A DNA stretch of 64,000 nucleotides from assembly GCA_028820655.1 (NCBI GenBank), contig JAPPIK010000024.1, positions 203,541 to 267,540 on the forward strand, given 5' to 3'. Source of the DNA: Candidatus Poribacteria bacterium (GTDB taxonomy: Bacteria; Poribacteria; WGA-4E; JAJDTR01). The notes under the pieces were generated by a model. That model ran no database searches. It was not told the DNA's origin and worked only from the letters and a program-made list of their open reading frames with translations. Shown here piece by piece: positions 55,904 through 63,974 of this stretch. The position numbers and the translations under genes are program-made. Position 1 is the first letter of the stretch, and each line of letters starts with the position of its first letter.

Positions 55904-57184
55904 TCACTCTTCTCCGGACGGCTTCTCCGAGAAGCTGTCTTTTTCAATGATGGCCGTATTCATCATTCCCCATTCCATGCTTTCAGGTCCGGCGTCAGAC
56001 CACTCCCCTGAATACTCCATCAATACATAATCTTCGTCGCCCCAGCCGGAGTCCTTCGGTTCATGTGGTCCCCAATTGGTATAGGTAACCGGTTCACCGC
56101 TCGCCCAAACCCACTCTCCCTCGTTTGGATGATCGGTCAACCCAATCCAACAGCGTTCAGGCTTGAAAATCTTCACCAGCCACTCCTGTTCAACCGCATC
56201 CGAGATTGAGACCAGATACGCTCCTTCGGCGGCAGCTTGGCTGTTTGCATCATCCCAACTCCCGCAGCGGATTCGCTTGTAGGCGTGTCCGTTTTCCGGA
56301 TTCACCACCCACGCGCCCATATCTCCCGGTACCGATGATGTGGGCGATTTGGCAGCCGCTTCGACTCGACCGGCCGCCAAATCTGCGAGAGTCGGCCGCC
56401 TTTCAAGGGTAAAGACCAAATCCTCTTTGTTTTCCCCCTTTCTAAGTAGGAACGGTTCCGCTGTGGCAGTGAATCCTCGATAAACCACCGTGACCGTGTA
56501 GTACGCCGCCTCATCGACTTGGAATACAAAGTACCCTTCGGCGTCCGTCTCGCCTGAGGTACCGGAGCTGCCACTACCCATTCCATCGGTAAAACGTTGG
56601 CTTGCATTGATCTGAATATTCGCGCTGGCAAGCGGAGTTCCGTCGGGGAACACTATTCTGCCTCGAATGTACTGCCGAGACCTCACTCTTATCTCAACGT
56701 TCTCAATGTGCGTGTCCGGTTTGATGGCAAACACGATTCCGTCAAAAGCAAATGGCCGATGTGGGTACACTGTCACCGAACCGACTTTCATGGATAGAAT
56801 GTCGTGGCCAGCCGCGGACTCATGGTCAGTCCTAGATTTGAAGACCGAGTCCAATCGCACCTTTATCGGAGCGATGTCGCTGATGGAAAAGCGTCCCTCA
56901 TCGTCGGTACGCGATTTGCGCGATCCCATTAACGCTATGATTCCTTGAAGCCACGAATCATTGATGCTTTCAACCGAATCGGGAGAAACTGGGGTAAGGA
57001 TTAACCTGAATTCGGGGACAGGGTTTCCCTTCAAATCGAGGACACGACCGGATAGTGAACAGGAAGATACTAGAGCGGTACTTTGTGGCGACGCCGCGAG
57101 CATAATTACCACAGTGGCCGTGAATAGCCAAGAATTTTCTCGTATCGGCCCGAGAATCGAATGCTTGAAATGAGCACAATTCAT
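55904..57184 (-). CDS. Membrane/exported carboxypeptidase-regulatory plus C-type-lectin-like protein
   Basis: A 426-residue paralog of the sensor half of the upstream sigma-fusion gene, but with no sigma domain. It has one N-terminal hydrophobic helix (SWLFTATVVIMLAASPQ) and carboxypeptidase-regulatory-like beta domains (CSLSGRVLDLKGNPVPEFRL; IRGRIVFPDGTPLASANIQI). The C-terminal C-type-lectin-like domain has GAYLVSISDAVEQEWLV, CWIGLTDHPNEGEWVWASGE and PVTYTNWGPHEP. AAGGAGG lies eight bases before this ATG; a longer frame to 57232 is not needed. It is 75 bp downstream of the fusion gene and probably co-transcribed. Likely outer-face ligand binder; ligand unknown. Confidence 0.82.
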   Translation of the reverse strand: MNCAHFKHSILGPIRENSWLFTATVVIMLAASPQSTALVSSCSLSGRVLDLKGNPVPEFRLILTPVSPDSVESINDSWLQGIIALMGSRKSRTDDEGRFSISDIAPIKVRLDSVFKSRTDHESAAGHDILSMKVGSVTVYPHRPFAFDGIVFAIKPDTHIENVEIRVRSRQYIRGRIVFPDGTPLASANIQINASQRFTDGMGSGSSGTSGETDAEGYFVFQVDEAAYYTVTVVYRGFTATAEPFLLRKGENKEDLVFTLERRPTLADLAAGRVEAAAKSPTSSVPGDMGAWVVNPENGHAYKRIRCGSWDDANSQAAAEGAYLVSISDAVEQEWLVKIFKPERCWIGLTDHPNEGEWVWASGEPVTYTNWGPHEPKDSGWGDEDYVLMEYSGEWSDAGPESMEWGMMNTAIIEKDSFSEKPSGEE

Positions 57185-57259
57185 GATTCCTGCCTCCTTT
57201 GCGTGGTTGCTCGTGAAATGGTTAAGAACCACATAGTTGAATGACGCGAATTTGGCGGT

Positions 57260-59437
57260 TCACCGACTCGTGGTTGGCGTTGAGGAGGTACCGGTCTTTT
57301 CGATGATAGCCATTCGAACTATCTTCCACTTCGGGTTTCCGGGCCGCACATTGTACCATTTTCCATCCGGTGTGAGCCCCATGAAGACATAATCTCCTTC
57401 GCCGTGATCGGAATCCGACGGTTCGGCGGGCGCCCAGTTTCTGTAGGTAACCGGATCGCCGTTCATCCATTTCCATTCACCCTCCTTCTCAGAATCGGCT
57501 AATCCGATCCAATAGGGCGCCGTCCCAAAGACATTCACGAGCCATTCCTGCTCCGCGGCGCCGCTAATCGAAACCAAGTATGCACCTTCGCTCATGGCTT
57601 CCGCTTGAGCGTCTTCCCGACTCTCGCAATGAATGCTTCTGTAGGCGTGCCCGTTCGAGGGATTCATAACCCACGCACCGTCGCGGTCAGGTTCGACCGG
57701 AGCGGGAGTTGGCTTGATGGAAATCGGCGGGCTGTCGAGTGTTAAGACCAAGTCATCGCGGCGCTGTCCCGCTTCAAGTGCGAACTGCTCCGAGTTTGCC
57801 GATAGCCCTTGAAATTCAATCGCAACCGTGTAAAATGCGGGTTCCTCCACGTAGAGCACAATGTATCCTTCACCATCTGACCGGGTCGCGCCGCCGCTCT
57901 CACCTCGGCCCTCCCCTTTAAAATCTTGATGTCGTAGACTGGTTTGAACTTCGGCGTTTGTGAGGGGTGTGCCGTCGGCGAAGACGATTCGCCCTCGAAT
58001 TCGCATTCGAGGTCTCACTACGACCTCAATATTTTCAAGGTGGGTTCCCGGCTCAATCGTAAATGTAATTCCGCCGAAAGGGGCCCGCTCCCGTCTGGAC
58101 GGGTAAAAAGTCATTACGCCGATGTCAATCGATACTACCTCGGAGGCGGCGAGATTATCCTGATTAAGATCATCTGGCGGCGTGTCGCCGTCCATGTAGT
58201 TAGGTTGCGGCATGAATTGAATAGGAAACGGTTTAATCCCAGCAATCGAAAACCGTCCCTCTTCATCCGTATCCGATTTTAGCGTCAGGGCTTGTGCGCC
58301 TCCATTGAGCCCCTCAAACATGAAAAACGGCTGAATCTCCCCATCCACAGAATAAATTGGCGCAACAGCCAACGGGAACCCGGCTATCGGATTTCCGTCT
58401 GTGTCAACAACACGGCCGGAAAACGCAAGTTTTTCGGAGTCGCTCCCCGTCATTGCAGCCGCAAATTGCGGATTAGCGGGATTCGCACCGCCGGCACTTG
58501 ATGTGCTCGCTCGGCCAGTTAACTGACTGATTCGCTCCGTGGAGGCGTGCCTGGAGCCGCCTAGTGTCCGCTTTGCCATCGGTACCGGAACACCTGGAAT
58601 CGATGCGCGTGTGGAATACGAAACGGGCTCAACTAGTGCGACCGCTATGGGCGTTCGGCTTGTGTTTGATGGCGCCGCGCCGATTTGAAGTGACGAAAAT
58701 GCCGTCAGTGAATCGTCTCGCGATCCAACAAGCCCAATAAAGATGCACAGTGCCGTAATCAGTGAAAATACAGTCTTGCCAACGGCTGTGCCGCTCCACG
58801 AAAATCCCATCGTTGGCGCCGGTGTGTGACGAATCTGTTCCATCATTTGCATGAGAAACCCTCCTGTCAGTTTGTGGGTTTTCAGGAGTCTACCGTACCG
58901 TTCGGACAGTGCGTTACCAAGTTGTTGACGGGCGCGATGCAACTTGGTCTTTACCGTGTTCACGGAGACACCGAGGAATTCTGAAATCTCCTTCAACGTA
59001 CAGCCACCCATATAAAACATCGACACGGCGACCCGATTTTCGTCGGAGAGCGCCGCGATTGCCTGCTCAAGGTCCACCCGCCAGCCCTCTGCGGGCACAG
59101 CGTGCACCGGTTCAACCCGTAGGTCATTGTCCGACGCATCGGTCAGAACAACCTCGTGCTGACGTGTTTTCGCAGCCCGTGCCAACCAGCGGTTGCATTC
59201 GTTCGACATGATGGTATACAGCCAACTTCTGAAGCGGTGCGGATGCCGCAGTGCATAGAGATTGCGGTATGCGCGCAAGAACACCTCCTGCATAACATCC
59301 TGCGCATCCGTCTCGTTCCTGACCTTTTGAAAGGCGTAGGCGAAGACCATCTCCTGATACTTGTGCACGAGAACGCCGAACGCATCTCGATCGCCCCCGA
59401 GCGTTTGGGATACTAACTGTTCATCGGCTGAATACAT
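57260..59437 (-). CDS. ECF sigma factor fused to membrane-anchored C-type-lectin-like sensor
   Basis: A 725-residue fusion. Residues ~5-75 are sigma region 2 (DAFGVLVHKYQEMVFAYAFQ, ETDAQDVMQEVFLRAYRNL). About 127-180 is region 4 with its helix-turn-helix (ISEFLGVSVNTVKTKLHRAR). A single transmembrane helix (KTVFSLITALCIFIGLVG, ~217-235) follows. Beyond it are carboxypeptidase-regulatory-like domains (FSGRVVDTDGNPIAGF near 337) and a C-type-lectin-like domain from ~600 (GAYLVSISGAAEQEWLV, WIGLADSEKEGEWKWM). The topology puts sigma inside and lectin outside. A GTG at 59533 would add 32 residues; the inner ATG gives the usual ECF N-terminus. Residue 196 is an ATG with a strong ribosome site. No separate anti-sigma gene is seen. 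C-terminally extended ECFs are known, but control here is inferred. Confidence 0.85.
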   Translation of the reverse strand: MYSADEQLVSQTLGGDRDAFGVLVHKYQEMVFAYAFQKVRNETDAQDVMQEVFLRAYRNLYALRHPHRFRSWLYTIMSNECNRWLARAAKTRQHEVVLTDASDNDLRVEPVHAVPAEGWRVDLEQAIAALSDENRVAVSMFYMGGCTLKEISEFLGVSVNTVKTKLHRARQQLGNALSERYGRLLKTHKLTGGFLMQMMEQIRHTPAPTMGFSWSGTAVGKTVFSLITALCIFIGLVGSRDDSLTAFSSLQIGAAPSNTSRTPIAVALVEPVSYSTRASIPGVPVPMAKRTLGGSRHASTERISQLTGRASTSSAGGANPANPQFAAAMTGSDSEKLAFSGRVVDTDGNPIAGFPLAVAPIYSVDGEIQPFFMFEGLNGGAQALTLKSDTDEEGRFSIAGIKPFPIQFMPQPNYMDGDTPPDDLNQDNLAASEVVSIDIGVMTFYPSRRERAPFGGITFTIEPGTHLENIEVVVRPRMRIRGRIVFADGTPLTNAEVQTSLRHQDFKGEGRGESGGATRSDGEGYIVLYVEEPAFYTVAIEFQGLSANSEQFALEAGQRRDDLVLTLDSPPISIKPTPAPVEPDRDGAWVMNPSNGHAYRSIHCESREDAQAEAMSEGAYLVSISGAAEQEWLVNVFGTAPYWIGLADSEKEGEWKWMNGDPVTYRNWAPAEPSDSDHGEGDYVFMGLTPDGKWYNVRPGNPKWKIVRMAIIEKTGTSSTPTTSR
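58852..58865 (-). promoter_or_regulatory. Internal ribosome-binding site and ATG inside the sigma-sensor gene
   Basis: On the minus strand AGGAGGG, six bases, ATG, in frame, exactly between the sigma part and the transmembrane/sensor part. It would give a 530-residue sensor-only product. The same junction in the paralog at the window edge is split by a stop codon, suggesting this gene joined two formerly separate cistrons. Confidence 0.55.
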
Positions 59438-59872
59438 AACACGCACCAAATCGAAGATCAAGTCCAGCTTCAGCGCATCGGATTGAACACAATTGCTATT
59501 AAGACCCTTGTAATAGGAAAAAGGTTCTTCCACAAGGAAAAAAGATTTGGTTCATGTTCTCTGACATGAAGCTCAATCGTTCCTAACGGGTGCGGCTGCT
59601 CAGGGCGCACGCTCTTCCGAAGATGTGTCATCACCGTGTCGGTCAAAAACTGCTGCGATGGCTTAATTTGTCGCATTGATTTTAGGAAACGTAGATATGC
59701 ATTCTCTATTGCGACGGGTATTATAATACGGACTGCTTCCACGTTTGTATCCGAATCGAACACAACTTTGCCGGAATCGACATATCCGAAAATGACATTC
59801 CAACACGGACAGATTTGACCCGTGCTGCTCGAGGTGGAAGAGAAAACGGAAAGACAGGAGGGGTAGACAACC
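59438..59872. other. Interval between the sigma-sensor gene and the divergent kinase-like gene
   Basis: No firm gene. On the minus strand a frame open from 59904 to 59470 contains protein-like sequence (VVFDSDTNVEAVRIIIPVAI, HPLGTIELHVREHEP), but it has no good start or ribosome site and overlaps the kinase-like gene's first codons. It may be a small unrecognised gene upstream of the sigma factor or a chance frame. Promoters for both divergent genes must lie here; none is clear. Confidence 0.3.
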
Positions 59873-60601: not shown

Positions 60602-61387
60602 TTAGTCAGAAACCTCCTCCAGCAGTTCGCGCCCGTTCAGCGACTGCACCGGCCGGTTGTTATTGTCAATAATCGCTTTGAATGCGGCGATTTGCGCTCC
60701 GGACATTTCAATGGGAGATTTAAGCACAAACCACTTTACTCCTTCTGAACACGGCGGGGTTGTCAACGATCCTTCGTAGCGGTACGTATGCCTCGGGCTC
60801 GGCAATAATTCATCGGCATTGAAGGTGACACTCTCAACGCTCTTCGCTTGTCCCGGGGCGGTTGGCAGATGCGCCCATATGGGATTGAACGCGGCGTTCT
60901 CCCGCCCGCGCCGAATAAGCGCTCCAACGACAGCCAACGCGCCATCGTCGCTTGTGTGAACGAGGTGCATCTCCATGTCAAGTGATTTGCCCGTTACCGT
61001 ATGTTCGCTCGGCGCGTGAAAATGGAATTGTAGCAGTTGAAATCGAGCACCGTCAACCTCTAGCCAACTTCCCTTGGGATACGTAACTTCAATCGTGTGA
61101 CCATTATTGCGGATGGTCAATGTCGCCGGTTGGTAGTTGATGGTTATGCCGGGAAGATTTGCGCGTATGGGGTTTGCAATGTCTATCGGCGATTGGTGCG
61201 TACCAACGGAGCAGAGATGGTATTCCGGGGAGAGTTTCCCCCAGACAGCCGGACCGCTTTCCACCTCATAACCCCACTTGAGGTGCTCGGGCTGAGATAG
61301 GCGATTCTCCGACTTCGCACAACTCGACATACACACGAGGGCGCACATGACACTACCGACACCAAACAGTGTTGGATAACTACCCAT
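60602..61387 (-). CDS. Alpha-class carbonic anhydrase, probable lipoprotein
   Basis: A 261-residue alpha carbonic anhydrase, catalysing reversible CO2 hydration outside the cytoplasm. Motifs: THQSPIDI, the zinc histidines in FHFHAPSEH (near residue 122) and MHLVH, and SLTTPPCSEGVKWFV. The N-terminus (GVGSVMCALVCMSSCAKS) is a signal peptide ending in a plausible lipobox MSSC, so it is likely lipid-anchored in the periplasm or on the surface. AAGGAGAG lies before this ATG; the frame extends to 61519 but without support. The stop lies six bases from the end of the convergent kinase-like gene. All three zinc ligands appear present, so it should be active. Confidence 0.92.
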   Translation of the reverse strand: MGSYPTLFGVGSVMCALVCMSSCAKSENRLSQPEHLKWGYEVESGPAVWGKLSPEYHLCSVGTHQSPIDIANPIRANLPGITINYQPATLTIRNNGHTIEVTYPKGSWLEVDGARFQLLQFHFHAPSEHTVTGKSLDMEMHLVHTSDDGALAVVGALIRRGRENAAFNPIWAHLPTAPGQAKSVESVTFNADELLPSPRHTYRYEGSLTTPPCSEGVKWFVLKSPIEMSGAQIAAFKAIIDNNNRPVQSLNGRELLEEVSD

Positions 61388-61480
61388 CAATTCTCTCCTT
61401 TTTCTTTCTAACAATTGTGCCGCGAGTCGCAAACGGGCTCTTGGGTGTTTGACTAGTGGTAACTTTGAACCAACATTATA

Positions 61481-61501
61481 CCGCAAACTGTTAGTTTGCG
61501 G
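61481..61501. repeat. CT-GTT-AG hairpin
   Basis: ccgcaaact-gtt-agtttgcgg, a 9-bp perfect stem, same as the one at 12402 and covarying with the one at 33591. It lies between the carbonic anhydrase start and the end of the next minus-strand gene. Confidence 0.8.
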
Positions 61502-61634
61502 AGATCCCAATGTAACCATTTGTGCTGCAAGTCATCGCTATCCGCAAAACACCGATTATCATGGCAACCACCGGAATCATACAAATCTCGGTTTAGATGA
61601 ATGCCAATCCCACCCAAAAGAACCCGCAGGCAGT

Positions 61635-63974
61635 TCAATTCGCGAGAAGAACCTGAATCCGATCTTGAAGATTCAAAGGGTACGCGATGTCGGCAATTTC
61701 GCCTTTCCGGTTAATGAGAATAACCGGATCGCCCCACCCAATAGCGTATCGATCAAACGTTTCGCCTCTCGCGCTGAGGATTTTCGTCTCGCCGTCAAGC
61801 GCGACAGGGTAGATGAGCGACTTTTCCTTGATAATACGCCTGGCACCGTCGACATCTGTCGCTGCGGGACACACGGCGATGCAAACGAGCCCTTTCTTCA
61901 GATAGGATTTCTGTAAGAAATTCAATACGTCTATACAGAGTACGTTATCCGAGTCACTCAAATCCCAAAAATAGAGCGCGATTACCTTTCCTTTCAATTC
62001 TCCGATAGAGATCGATCGCCCGGTCAACCACTCTGCAACCTTCAGCTCCGGCGCCGATTTACCCATCAGGGCCTCCAGGCGCACCTTTGCCTCCTGCGCG
62101 TACATCTCCTCTGTCTGATGTTCTGCTTCCTGATCCCATACCGATTTGACGGCATTCCCCGGCAGCAAGGTAAGATCAGCGATCTGGGTCATCGCCTCTG
62201 TCGCGGTGAACTCATCGGTAGCCGCAGCAAAATACCCTCCCGTGTACGGATGCGCGTTAATAATGTACTTTTCGCCTGCGATGAACCTAACCCCGTGGTA
62301 TCGACCATCGTTGTCCGTCACGGCAACGTTTGTGCCGACCAATGATCCTTTCTGGTCGTCCCACTGGGTCAGAACGATGGATACGCCGGGAATCGGTTCT
62401 CCGTTTTGGTCGACCACTCGTCCGGAAACCTCCACCTGCTCGTACCGTTCCATCCGAATCTCAACCTGCACCCCCGGCTGGAATTCCACCTCTGCCGTAC
62501 CGCGCAATCCGCGTTCGATGTGCTCTGCTCTGAGGAATAGTGGTTGACCGGGCCAAAGTCCGCCGAGGGTATACTCGCCGTGTTCATTGGATTTTCCGCC
62601 CTCCGGCACCACCCTCGTCCATTCCTCGGTAACCCGCGCCCCTGCGACCGGCTTGCCGGCTTTCGTTAACATCCGAATGACCAACTCGATACCCTTTGCG
62701 AATTGAAAATCAACAGTGGCTGTTTCGCCTTCAACGACATGCACAACTCTTGACACCTCACCGATGTCCTCGTAATCCCGAGGCGCCCGTGTAAACACGA
62801 GCGCCTGCCCCGGTGCGGCGTGGATTCGATAGACGCCGGTTTCGTCCGTTGCTGCACGGTGACGCCTCCCCAGAGATTCGGGATGAGCGGCGTCGTGAAA
62901 ATATACATTGTGGTTGGCGATCGGCTCGCCGGTATCTGTGTCAATCACTCGACCGGTGATAACGCCGCACCGAATTAAACTGAGGTCTACATCGGATACC
63001 GTCTGTCCCTCCGTCACCAGAATGTGTCCCTTGGGGATAGCCGTCCAACCATCGGGACCTATCCCAAGGGAGAGGTCGTACAGGCCGCGCGGCAGGTTTT
63101 TCACGACGAAAACCCCGTTTTCATCGACGCGTGCCTCCCCTCTCCCATGAGACAAATCTGTTCCACGCACCGTAACGGCCGCGTCTGTTACCGGCTCGCC
63201 GGTATCGGCGTAAGTGATGCGCCCCTCAATTCTGCCTTCGCGCTTCAGTCGGATCTCAAGCCCCTGCGCGCCAACCGGTACGCCGATGCGGTCAGCATTT
63301 GCGTACCCGGATGCCTGGATATAGAGAATTGTCATAGCGCTTTGAGGTAGATTACGGAAAACAAACTCACCCCTCTCATCGGTCTCGGCGAGAGGCATAT
63401 GATGAAATATGTTCAGCATCGAATTATCCTGGCGATGAGGCGACATCCGGTCTACACTCATCAAGAATTGAATTCTTACCTCCGCGTTGGAAATGGGTTC
63501 GTCGGAGGGATTCAATATTCGCCCGGAGATCTTCCCCGGCGCATCGAGTGGAATCTCAATATTCGTCGTGTTTTCGAGTGGAAAATTCCGCCACTGGTTT
63601 GCGTAATCGTCGTGTGTAATGAGGATGTCCAAGCGCCCGCCCGACTTTCTCGGCGCGGGACGCGGCATCTCAAAGCGAAACGTCCCATCCGTCGCCGTAC
63701 GAGCGACGAGTTGGGTAGCCTGCCAATTCACGGCGTACAGAATCTCCGCGCCCGCTACCGGATCACCGCTGCTATTGGCAACGCGCCCGGAAAAGGTAAA
63801 ATTCTCCTTCGTGTTTCCCCTACCTCCGCCCCCGGCGGTATCAGGATTTCCAATTAAGAATAGCAAAACACAAAGCGCTGCAGTTAGCGCGAATAGGGTT
63901 TTGTGCACAGCTAAACTCCTAGCGGCTGCCATCGCCCATCCCGGTGTTTGGCGAATCTGTTCCTTTATCCGCAT
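61635..63974 (-). CDS. Membrane-anchored carboxypeptidase-regulatory repeat protein with thioredoxin-fold C-terminus
   Basis: A 779-residue protein: N-terminal transmembrane helix (KTLFALTAALCVLLFLIG), then about six carboxypeptidase-regulatory-like beta domains (FSGRVANSSGDPVAGAEI, GRIEGRITYADTGEPVTDAA, VEVSGRVVDQNGEPIPGVSI). The C-terminus is a TlpA/AhpC-like thioredoxin-fold domain (GKSAPELKVAEWLTG, LKGKVIALYFWDLSDSD). No CxxC follows that strand, so disulfide chemistry is unlikely. The N-terminal FLMRIKEQIRQTP resembles FLMQMMEQIRHTP at the sigma-sensor junction. An in-frame TAA lies 18 bases upstream of the ATG (63993-63995), so an upstream sigma factor, if present beyond the window, is a separate ORF. 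The start lacks a good ribosome site. Confidence 0.78.
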   Translation of the reverse strand: MRIKEQIRQTPGWAMAAARSLAVHKTLFALTAALCVLLFLIGNPDTAGGGGRGNTKENFTFSGRVANSSGDPVAGAEILYAVNWQATQLVARTATDGTFRFEMPRPAPRKSGGRLDILITHDDYANQWRNFPLENTTNIEIPLDAPGKISGRILNPSDEPISNAEVRIQFLMSVDRMSPHRQDNSMLNIFHHMPLAETDERGEFVFRNLPQSAMTILYIQASGYANADRIGVPVGAQGLEIRLKREGRIEGRITYADTGEPVTDAAVTVRGTDLSHGRGEARVDENGVFVVKNLPRGLYDLSLGIGPDGWTAIPKGHILVTEGQTVSDVDLSLIRCGVITGRVIDTDTGEPIANHNVYFHDAAHPESLGRRHRAATDETGVYRIHAAPGQALVFTRAPRDYEDIGEVSRVVHVVEGETATVDFQFAKGIELVIRMLTKAGKPVAGARVTEEWTRVVPEGGKSNEHGEYTLGGLWPGQPLFLRAEHIERGLRGTAEVEFQPGVQVEIRMERYEQVEVSGRVVDQNGEPIPGVSIVLTQWDDQKGSLVGTNVAVTDNDGRYHGVRFIAGEKYIINAHPYTGGYFAAATDEFTATEAMTQIADLTLLPGNAVKSVWDQEAEHQTEEMYAQEAKVRLEALMGKSAPELKVAEWLTGRSISIGELKGKVIALYFWDLSDSDNVLCIDVLNFLQKSYLKKGLVCIAVCPAATDVDGARRIIKEKSLIYPVALDGETKILSARGETFDRYAIGWGDPVILINRKGEIADIAYPLNLQDRIQVLLAN

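Follow-up and report, generated by a model that had tools for sequence, protein, structure and literature searches.

The gene at 57260..59437 (minus strand) of the window, the whole stretch of 64,000 nucleotides analyzed here, encodes a 725-residue protein in which an ECF sigma factor is joined through a transmembrane (TM) helix to an outside C-type-lectin-like domain (CTLD). We read it as a membrane-tethered ECF sigma factor that would be its own receptor, where a change at the outside CTLD would lead to proteolytic release of the sigma domain and to its action on its own promoter; we give this reading a probability of roughly 0.6. It joins a well-supported fused architecture, charge-based topology, whole-protein selection, phylum-wide recurrence, partner gene and promoter motif with a ligand, a proteolytic release and a regulon that we infer.

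Domain organization and topology

The ORF runs uninterrupted from an ATG at 59437 to a stop codon that ends at 57260, and this start is supported by close homologs that begin at the same place. All features described in this section lie on the minus strand. Sigma region 2 (residues 23-90, 59168..59371) and sigma region 4 (residues 121-173, 58919..59077) match the Pfam models PF04542 Sigma70_r2 (1.8e-14) and PF08281 Sigma70_r4_2 (3e-15), the two regions that characterize ECF (group 4) sigma factors, and the NCBIfam sigma70-ECF superfamily model scores 91 bits against a cut-off of 42.9. They are followed by a cytoplasmic linker (residues 179-215, 58793..58903), in which the homolog comparison shows a conserved short helix, GGFLMQ.MEQIRH, located at residues 193-204 in a low-depth AlphaFold2 model, and a Pro-rich hinge. 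A single hydrophobic helix after region 4 (residues 218-238, 58724..58786, with its hydrophobic core at about 219-237) is predicted from hydrophobicity, the model and charge to be transmembrane with its N-terminal end inside. Outside, a Ser/Pro/Ala-rich spacer (residues 239-335, 58433..58723), disordered in the model, leads to two CarboxypepD_reg-like domains: the first one (residues 336-470, 58028..58432) shows a weak Pfam stretch and modeled beta strands with pLDDT of about 80 in parts, and the second one (residues 471-575, 57713..58027) is supported by the model and by a PF13620 match at residues 480-561 (5e-8), slightly over the cut-off. The CTLD (residues 608-696, 57350..57616) matches PF00059 Lectin_C (2e-11), and its sequence matches in PDB are C-type lectins, the mannose receptor family and the PLA2 receptor. 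No WD40 domain was found in the protein by Pfam. The first-pass annotation had described both sigma regions, one TM helix, CarboxypepD_reg-like domains and a CTLD in one frame, and Pfam and the hydrophobic helix bear this out.

That annotation also placed the sigma part inside and the CTLD outward, in agreement with the charge distribution: across 52 tethered sigma proteins, 121 Lys/Arg residues were counted on the sigma side of the helix vs 29 on the other side, an excess which argues that sigma faces in and the CTLD faces out. AlphaFold2 models of the window protein, built on shallow alignments, had mean pLDDT of 58.5 and 53.5; they show an ECF sigma fold and beta domains at about residues 336-575, and these sigma and CarboxypepD parts are usable, while the CTLD and the docking of the linker are not usable at this low depth. 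Foldseek searches with the model matched only ECF sigma and pilin-like beta domains.

None of the 113 poribacterial CTLDs has the four cysteines of the canonical disulphides. At the Ca-site motif positions (EPN/QPD and WND), the window CTLD shows EPS and WYN, a partial motif. Among 20 fusions of this type, E/Q-P-x is kept in about 15, as read from the alignment, and W-x-D/N in 14; four fusion copies from G046, G039 and G040 are without the E/Q-P-x motif. The lack of canonical disulphides and the partial Ca motif count against the reading favored below; a glycan is a possible ligand.

Conservation of the fusion

The close sigma-linker-TM family, searched in 85 genomes of the phylum, has 15 members in seven genomes, all of them fused. 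Two paralogs on contig C48 of the window genome show the same sigma-linker-TM part, with 71-76% identity, and outside it a long CarboxypepD_reg array with a thioredoxin-like end. The protein G015:C35:90707 (record JAPPKS010000027) has an architecture identical to that of the window protein over its full length, with 63% identity overall. Between these two proteins, dN/dS was 0.12 for sigma, 0.15 for the linker, 0.17 for the TM helix, 0.13 and 0.10 for the CarboxypepD parts, 0.21 for the CTLD and 0.41 for the spacer, which is under relaxed selection; the values are rough because parts of the alignment are nearly saturated for synonymous change. By this comparison, all folded parts of the window protein are clearly under constraint.

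Intact sigma-TM-CTLD fusions were found 20 times in 19 poribacterial genomes, so the architecture does occur in other Poribacteria, as had been anticipated at first pass. In a further sigma-TM-CTLD gene, from G082 (L147, 9908..11584), which lies in a row with other CTLD genes, a frameshift disrupts the CTLD. A frameshift or assembly join in the window ORF was rejected, since homologs are never split, purifying selection extends over the whole length and the architecture recurs; the two objections raised in advance, such a join and homologs with separate ORFs, both fail.

A stand-alone CTLD gene follows every lectin fusion

Fusion candidates were chosen by their CTLD and sigma matches, ignoring neighbors. 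A stand-alone CTLD gene is located downstream on the same strand in all 20 fusions and is directly next in 19 of them, with an ORF gap of -17 to 57 nt in these adjacent pairs; in the exception, G015, one gene intervenes. In several genomes, fusion and partner belong to a longer run of CTLD genes, four to eight in number. The partner gene of the window (55904..57184, minus strand), recognized by Pfam and the ORF listing, encodes a secreted stand-alone protein with CarboxypepD_reg and CTLD domains. It starts at an ATG at 57184 with the Shine-Dalgarno sequence AAAGGAGG, 75 nt past the sigma gene; its ORF reaches a GTG at 57232, and no terminator-like or promoter-like site was found in the 75-nt gap. 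Identity between the partner and the fused ectodomain over the CarboxypepD and CTLD region is 43% in the window and 44% in G015, and in the CTLD tree fused and free CTLDs each group with their own G015 counterpart. Near the sigma locus, the window also contains a gene for an alpha (eukaryotic-type) carbonic anhydrase (60602..61519, minus strand).

As this gene is always present, fusion and partner may operate together as a two-protein unit. The proposal of one-protein signalling stands as regards the single fused protein, but it had overlooked the partner. A secreted CTLD paralog that is always present also makes a protein ligand, or a shared control of lectin display, at least as plausible as a glycan.

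Promoter motif and sigma activity

ECF promoters have AAC in the -35 and a CGT-type -10 element (PMC8103513). An ECF-type promoter candidate, AACC-N17-GTCTTA, is located 63-89 nt upstream of the ATG (59500..59526, minus strand). It is the sole match in the 64-kb window, a number no higher than chance (0.63 expected for 64 kb), and it is the position and the family that support the candidate. Upstream regions of families f1/f2 show AAC(C/T)-N17-GTCTAA in 9 of 12 cases (shuffles: mean 0.155, maximum 2), and in 20 of the 32 regions of family f4, TGCA(A)CC precedes CGTCAC, GTCTT or CATCT (shuffles: mean 0.084, maximum 2); neither count is an independent test, because the patterns were derived from those very regions. 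A more independent, genome-wide search of six genomes with the f4-type pattern TGCAMC-N15..20-GCGTCACTAT gave 23 matches vs one for the reversed-pattern control, and 16 of the 23 stand immediately before a sigma ORF. Two further f4-type matches, one each in two genomes, precede an ABC transporter gene: at about position 1500 of L177 (G079) and of L195 (G082), the sigma-type promoter is found before an orthologous ABC transporter ATPase gene, which by its upstream sequence is a candidate regulon member. The strict f1/f2 pattern was tried in five genomes and gave two matches, one of them before a sigma gene, with no more than two control matches per genome; it was discarded as too strict to define a regulon.

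Part of the shared motif could be explained by duplication of genes together with their promoters. An ECF-type promoter common to the class, with most genome-wide matches before sigma genes, makes it very likely that the sigma domain is active and subject to autoregulation. At the sequence level, the AAC-type -35 and the CGT/GTC-type -10 of an autoregulated promoter are both present.

Tethered sigma factors across Poribacteria

Of the 34 sigma region 2 matches in the window genome, 12 have region 4 immediately followed by a TM helix. Judged by the look of their sequences, the outside parts of these 12 include propellers (WD40-like, BNR/Ycf48-like and TolB-like), CarboxypepD arrays and small domains; the Pfam check of outside parts covered CarboxypepD and CTLD members. 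In the same genome, locus L036 (G000:C37:84000-100860) contains five tandem small ECF sigma genes; in four of them, a TM helix comes right behind region 4. In locus L050 (G000:C48), the sigma gene at 68780 encodes a tethered protein of 790 residues whose CarboxypepD/thioredoxin array continues in the next ORF of 428 residues; this split is a frameshift or sequencing error. G082, a single contig of 6.7 Mb, has 102 sigma region 2 matches, and 64 of the 82 listed sigma matches are in open frames of at least 400 residues, by a hand count that includes a few primary-type sigma factors. Many are in frames of about 1000 residues, so that fused sigma factors have expanded to an extreme degree in this genome.

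On the sigma-linker-TM tree, whose sampling is biased towards CTLD loci, supported branches force at least six changes of the CTLD label, one being the broken copy. A single origin of the sigma-CTLD fusions was rejected on this count, and related sigma modules thus carry differing outside parts. As judged from the tree, related sigma-TM modules can exchange their ectodomains, with at least five swaps. The window also contains a sigma-less paralog (61635..63974, minus strand) that starts right at the linker and retains linker and TM helix (48% identity over residues 194-241, E 9e-8), followed by seven CarboxypepD_reg domains and, at the end, a thioredoxin-like part. The DNA 5' of this gene showed no remnant of a sigma domain.

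Proposed mechanism and alternatives

Pfam found no anti-sigma domain and no FecR-like domain in the window protein, and no anti-sigma gene adjoins it, its neighbors being the CTLD gene, the carbonic anhydrase gene and others. The ZAS zinc finger HxxxCxxC was absent between sigma and TM helix in all 52 tethered sigma proteins. A tethered ECF factor made as one protein without an anti-sigma factor, as first proposed, agrees with these searches. By eye, the linker helix resembles the pre-TM helix of anti-sigma proteins, but a hidden anti-sigma helix was unsupported when the linker profile was compared with six anti-sigma proteins of the same genome (2.4 bits, at a different segment).

In the reading that we favor, the sigma domain would be held in the cytoplasm, anchored at the inner membrane by the short conserved linker and one helix, and the CarboxypepD_reg stalk and the CTLD would point outwards. 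Silencing without an anti-sigma factor would come from tethering alone or from docking of the linker; the lack of a recognizable anti-sigma element that would account for inactivity counts against this reading. The trigger would be a change at the CTLD when it binds either a ligand or its paired secreted CTLD protein, leading to cleavage of the stalk or TM region. By analogy with relatives, the likeliest release route is regulated intramembrane proteolysis, with an RseP/S2P-type protease in the last step; the window genome encodes an RseP-like M50 protease and two S41/Prc-like proteases, which are common enzymes. The released sigma factor would bring RNA polymerase to the ECF-type promoter of its own gene, so that firing would yield more sensor and more product of the downstream lectin gene.

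Sigma might instead act while anchored, the ligand rearranging or clustering the protein so that RNA polymerase is recruited at the membrane and no proteolysis is needed. Membrane-bound recruitment has been proposed for one-component regulators such as CadC or ToxR, the linker and TM helix are roughly as conserved as sigma, and there is no anti-sigma domain that requires removal. We consider this unlikely, given that engagement of RNA polymerase and promoter escape would be awkward for an anchored sigma factor and that the characterized fused ECF IutY is released by proteolysis (PMC8999054). A vestigial sigma part in what is chiefly a surface protein is very improbable: the sigma-less paralog indicates that the TM helix can be a plain anchor, but sigma has low dN/dS and high Pfam scores, and ECF-type promoters are concentrated before genes of the tethered class.

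A different question is what the ectodomain senses. The input may be the secreted lectin partner and not a host glycan, the ectodomain gauging the amount of partner or its assembly at the surface; this fits proteolytic release and competes only with glycan sensing. The invariable partner gene, its paralogy to the fused ectodomain and the pairing of fused and free CTLDs with their G015 counterparts on the tree speak for it, but the adjacency may stem merely from common regulation or duplication, and we hold partner sensing as a tentative option, somewhat doubtful.

Comparison with known systems

Tethered ECF sigma factors that extend beyond the cytoplasm are already known. SCO4117 of Streptomyces coelicolor (ECF52) is a tethered ECF sigma factor with an outside carbohydrate-binding domain, for which autoregulation and proteolytic release were proposed (PMC5826349). 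The general idea of an ECF factor tethered to an outside carbohydrate-binding domain, which the first-pass annotation put forward here in a lectin-type form, was thus already published for that protein. Both are single proteins with an N-terminal ECF sigma, a TM helix and a flexible outside stretch, the outside domain here being a CTLD, a putative sugar binder. In ECF52, restricted to Actinobacteria, a zinc-finger anti-sigma domain separates sigma from the TM helix (PMC5826349), whereas the window class lacks that motif, carries CarboxypepD_reg and CTLD outside and is followed by the secreted CTLD partner gene.

IutY of Pseudomonas putida (ECF243), released by Prc and RseP (PMC8999054), resembles the window protein in that the C-terminal side of sigma is fused to a membrane-anchored regulatory part. 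It differs in its fused anti-sigma domain and in iron-starvation cell-surface signalling, and regulated intramembrane proteolysis, demonstrated for IutY (PMC8999054), is presumed for the window protein, which has no FecR match and neighbors unrelated to iron transport. ECF57 proteins, with an example from the planctomycete Singulisphaera acidiphila, have large C-terminal extensions (PMC8999054), as do the tethered sigma factors of the window genome, some with WD40-type propellers (C60 and C42, by eye), unlike the window protein. In SigI/RsgI of Clostridium thermocellum, an outside substrate-sensing domain controls sigma across the membrane with RseP cleavage (PMC12203970, PMC6056542). The likeness lies in an outside sensing domain governing sigma and in several paralogs with different sensors; SigI/RsgI differs in being two proteins, with the sensor on the anti-sigma factor and a non-ECF SigI.

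As far as open papers show, with prior mention possible, four things are new: the expansion in Poribacteria, the cassette of lectin fusion and partner, the absence of a recognizable anti-sigma element and the shared self-promoters. The Poribacteria literature examined mentions neither sigma factors nor lectins.

Biological significance

Poribacteria, known from marine sponges, form a widespread phylum that is uncultured. We see about even odds that the class represents phylum-wide plug-in one-protein receptors, in which a standard sigma-linker-TM part, with no anti-sigma, would be combined with swapped outside domains (lectin, propeller or CarboxypepD arrays), its own promoter and a matching secreted partner. 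If so, these bacteria would sense their environment by many single-protein receptors wired straight into RNA polymerase, a signalling layout besides two-component systems and sigma/anti-sigma pairs, and each cassette of sensor, switch, promoter and target would be readable from sequence. The lectin version would then be a self-regulating lectin-display operon of largely sponge-associated bacteria, and it offers concrete promoters and lectins for the study of host-matrix or mutual recognition.
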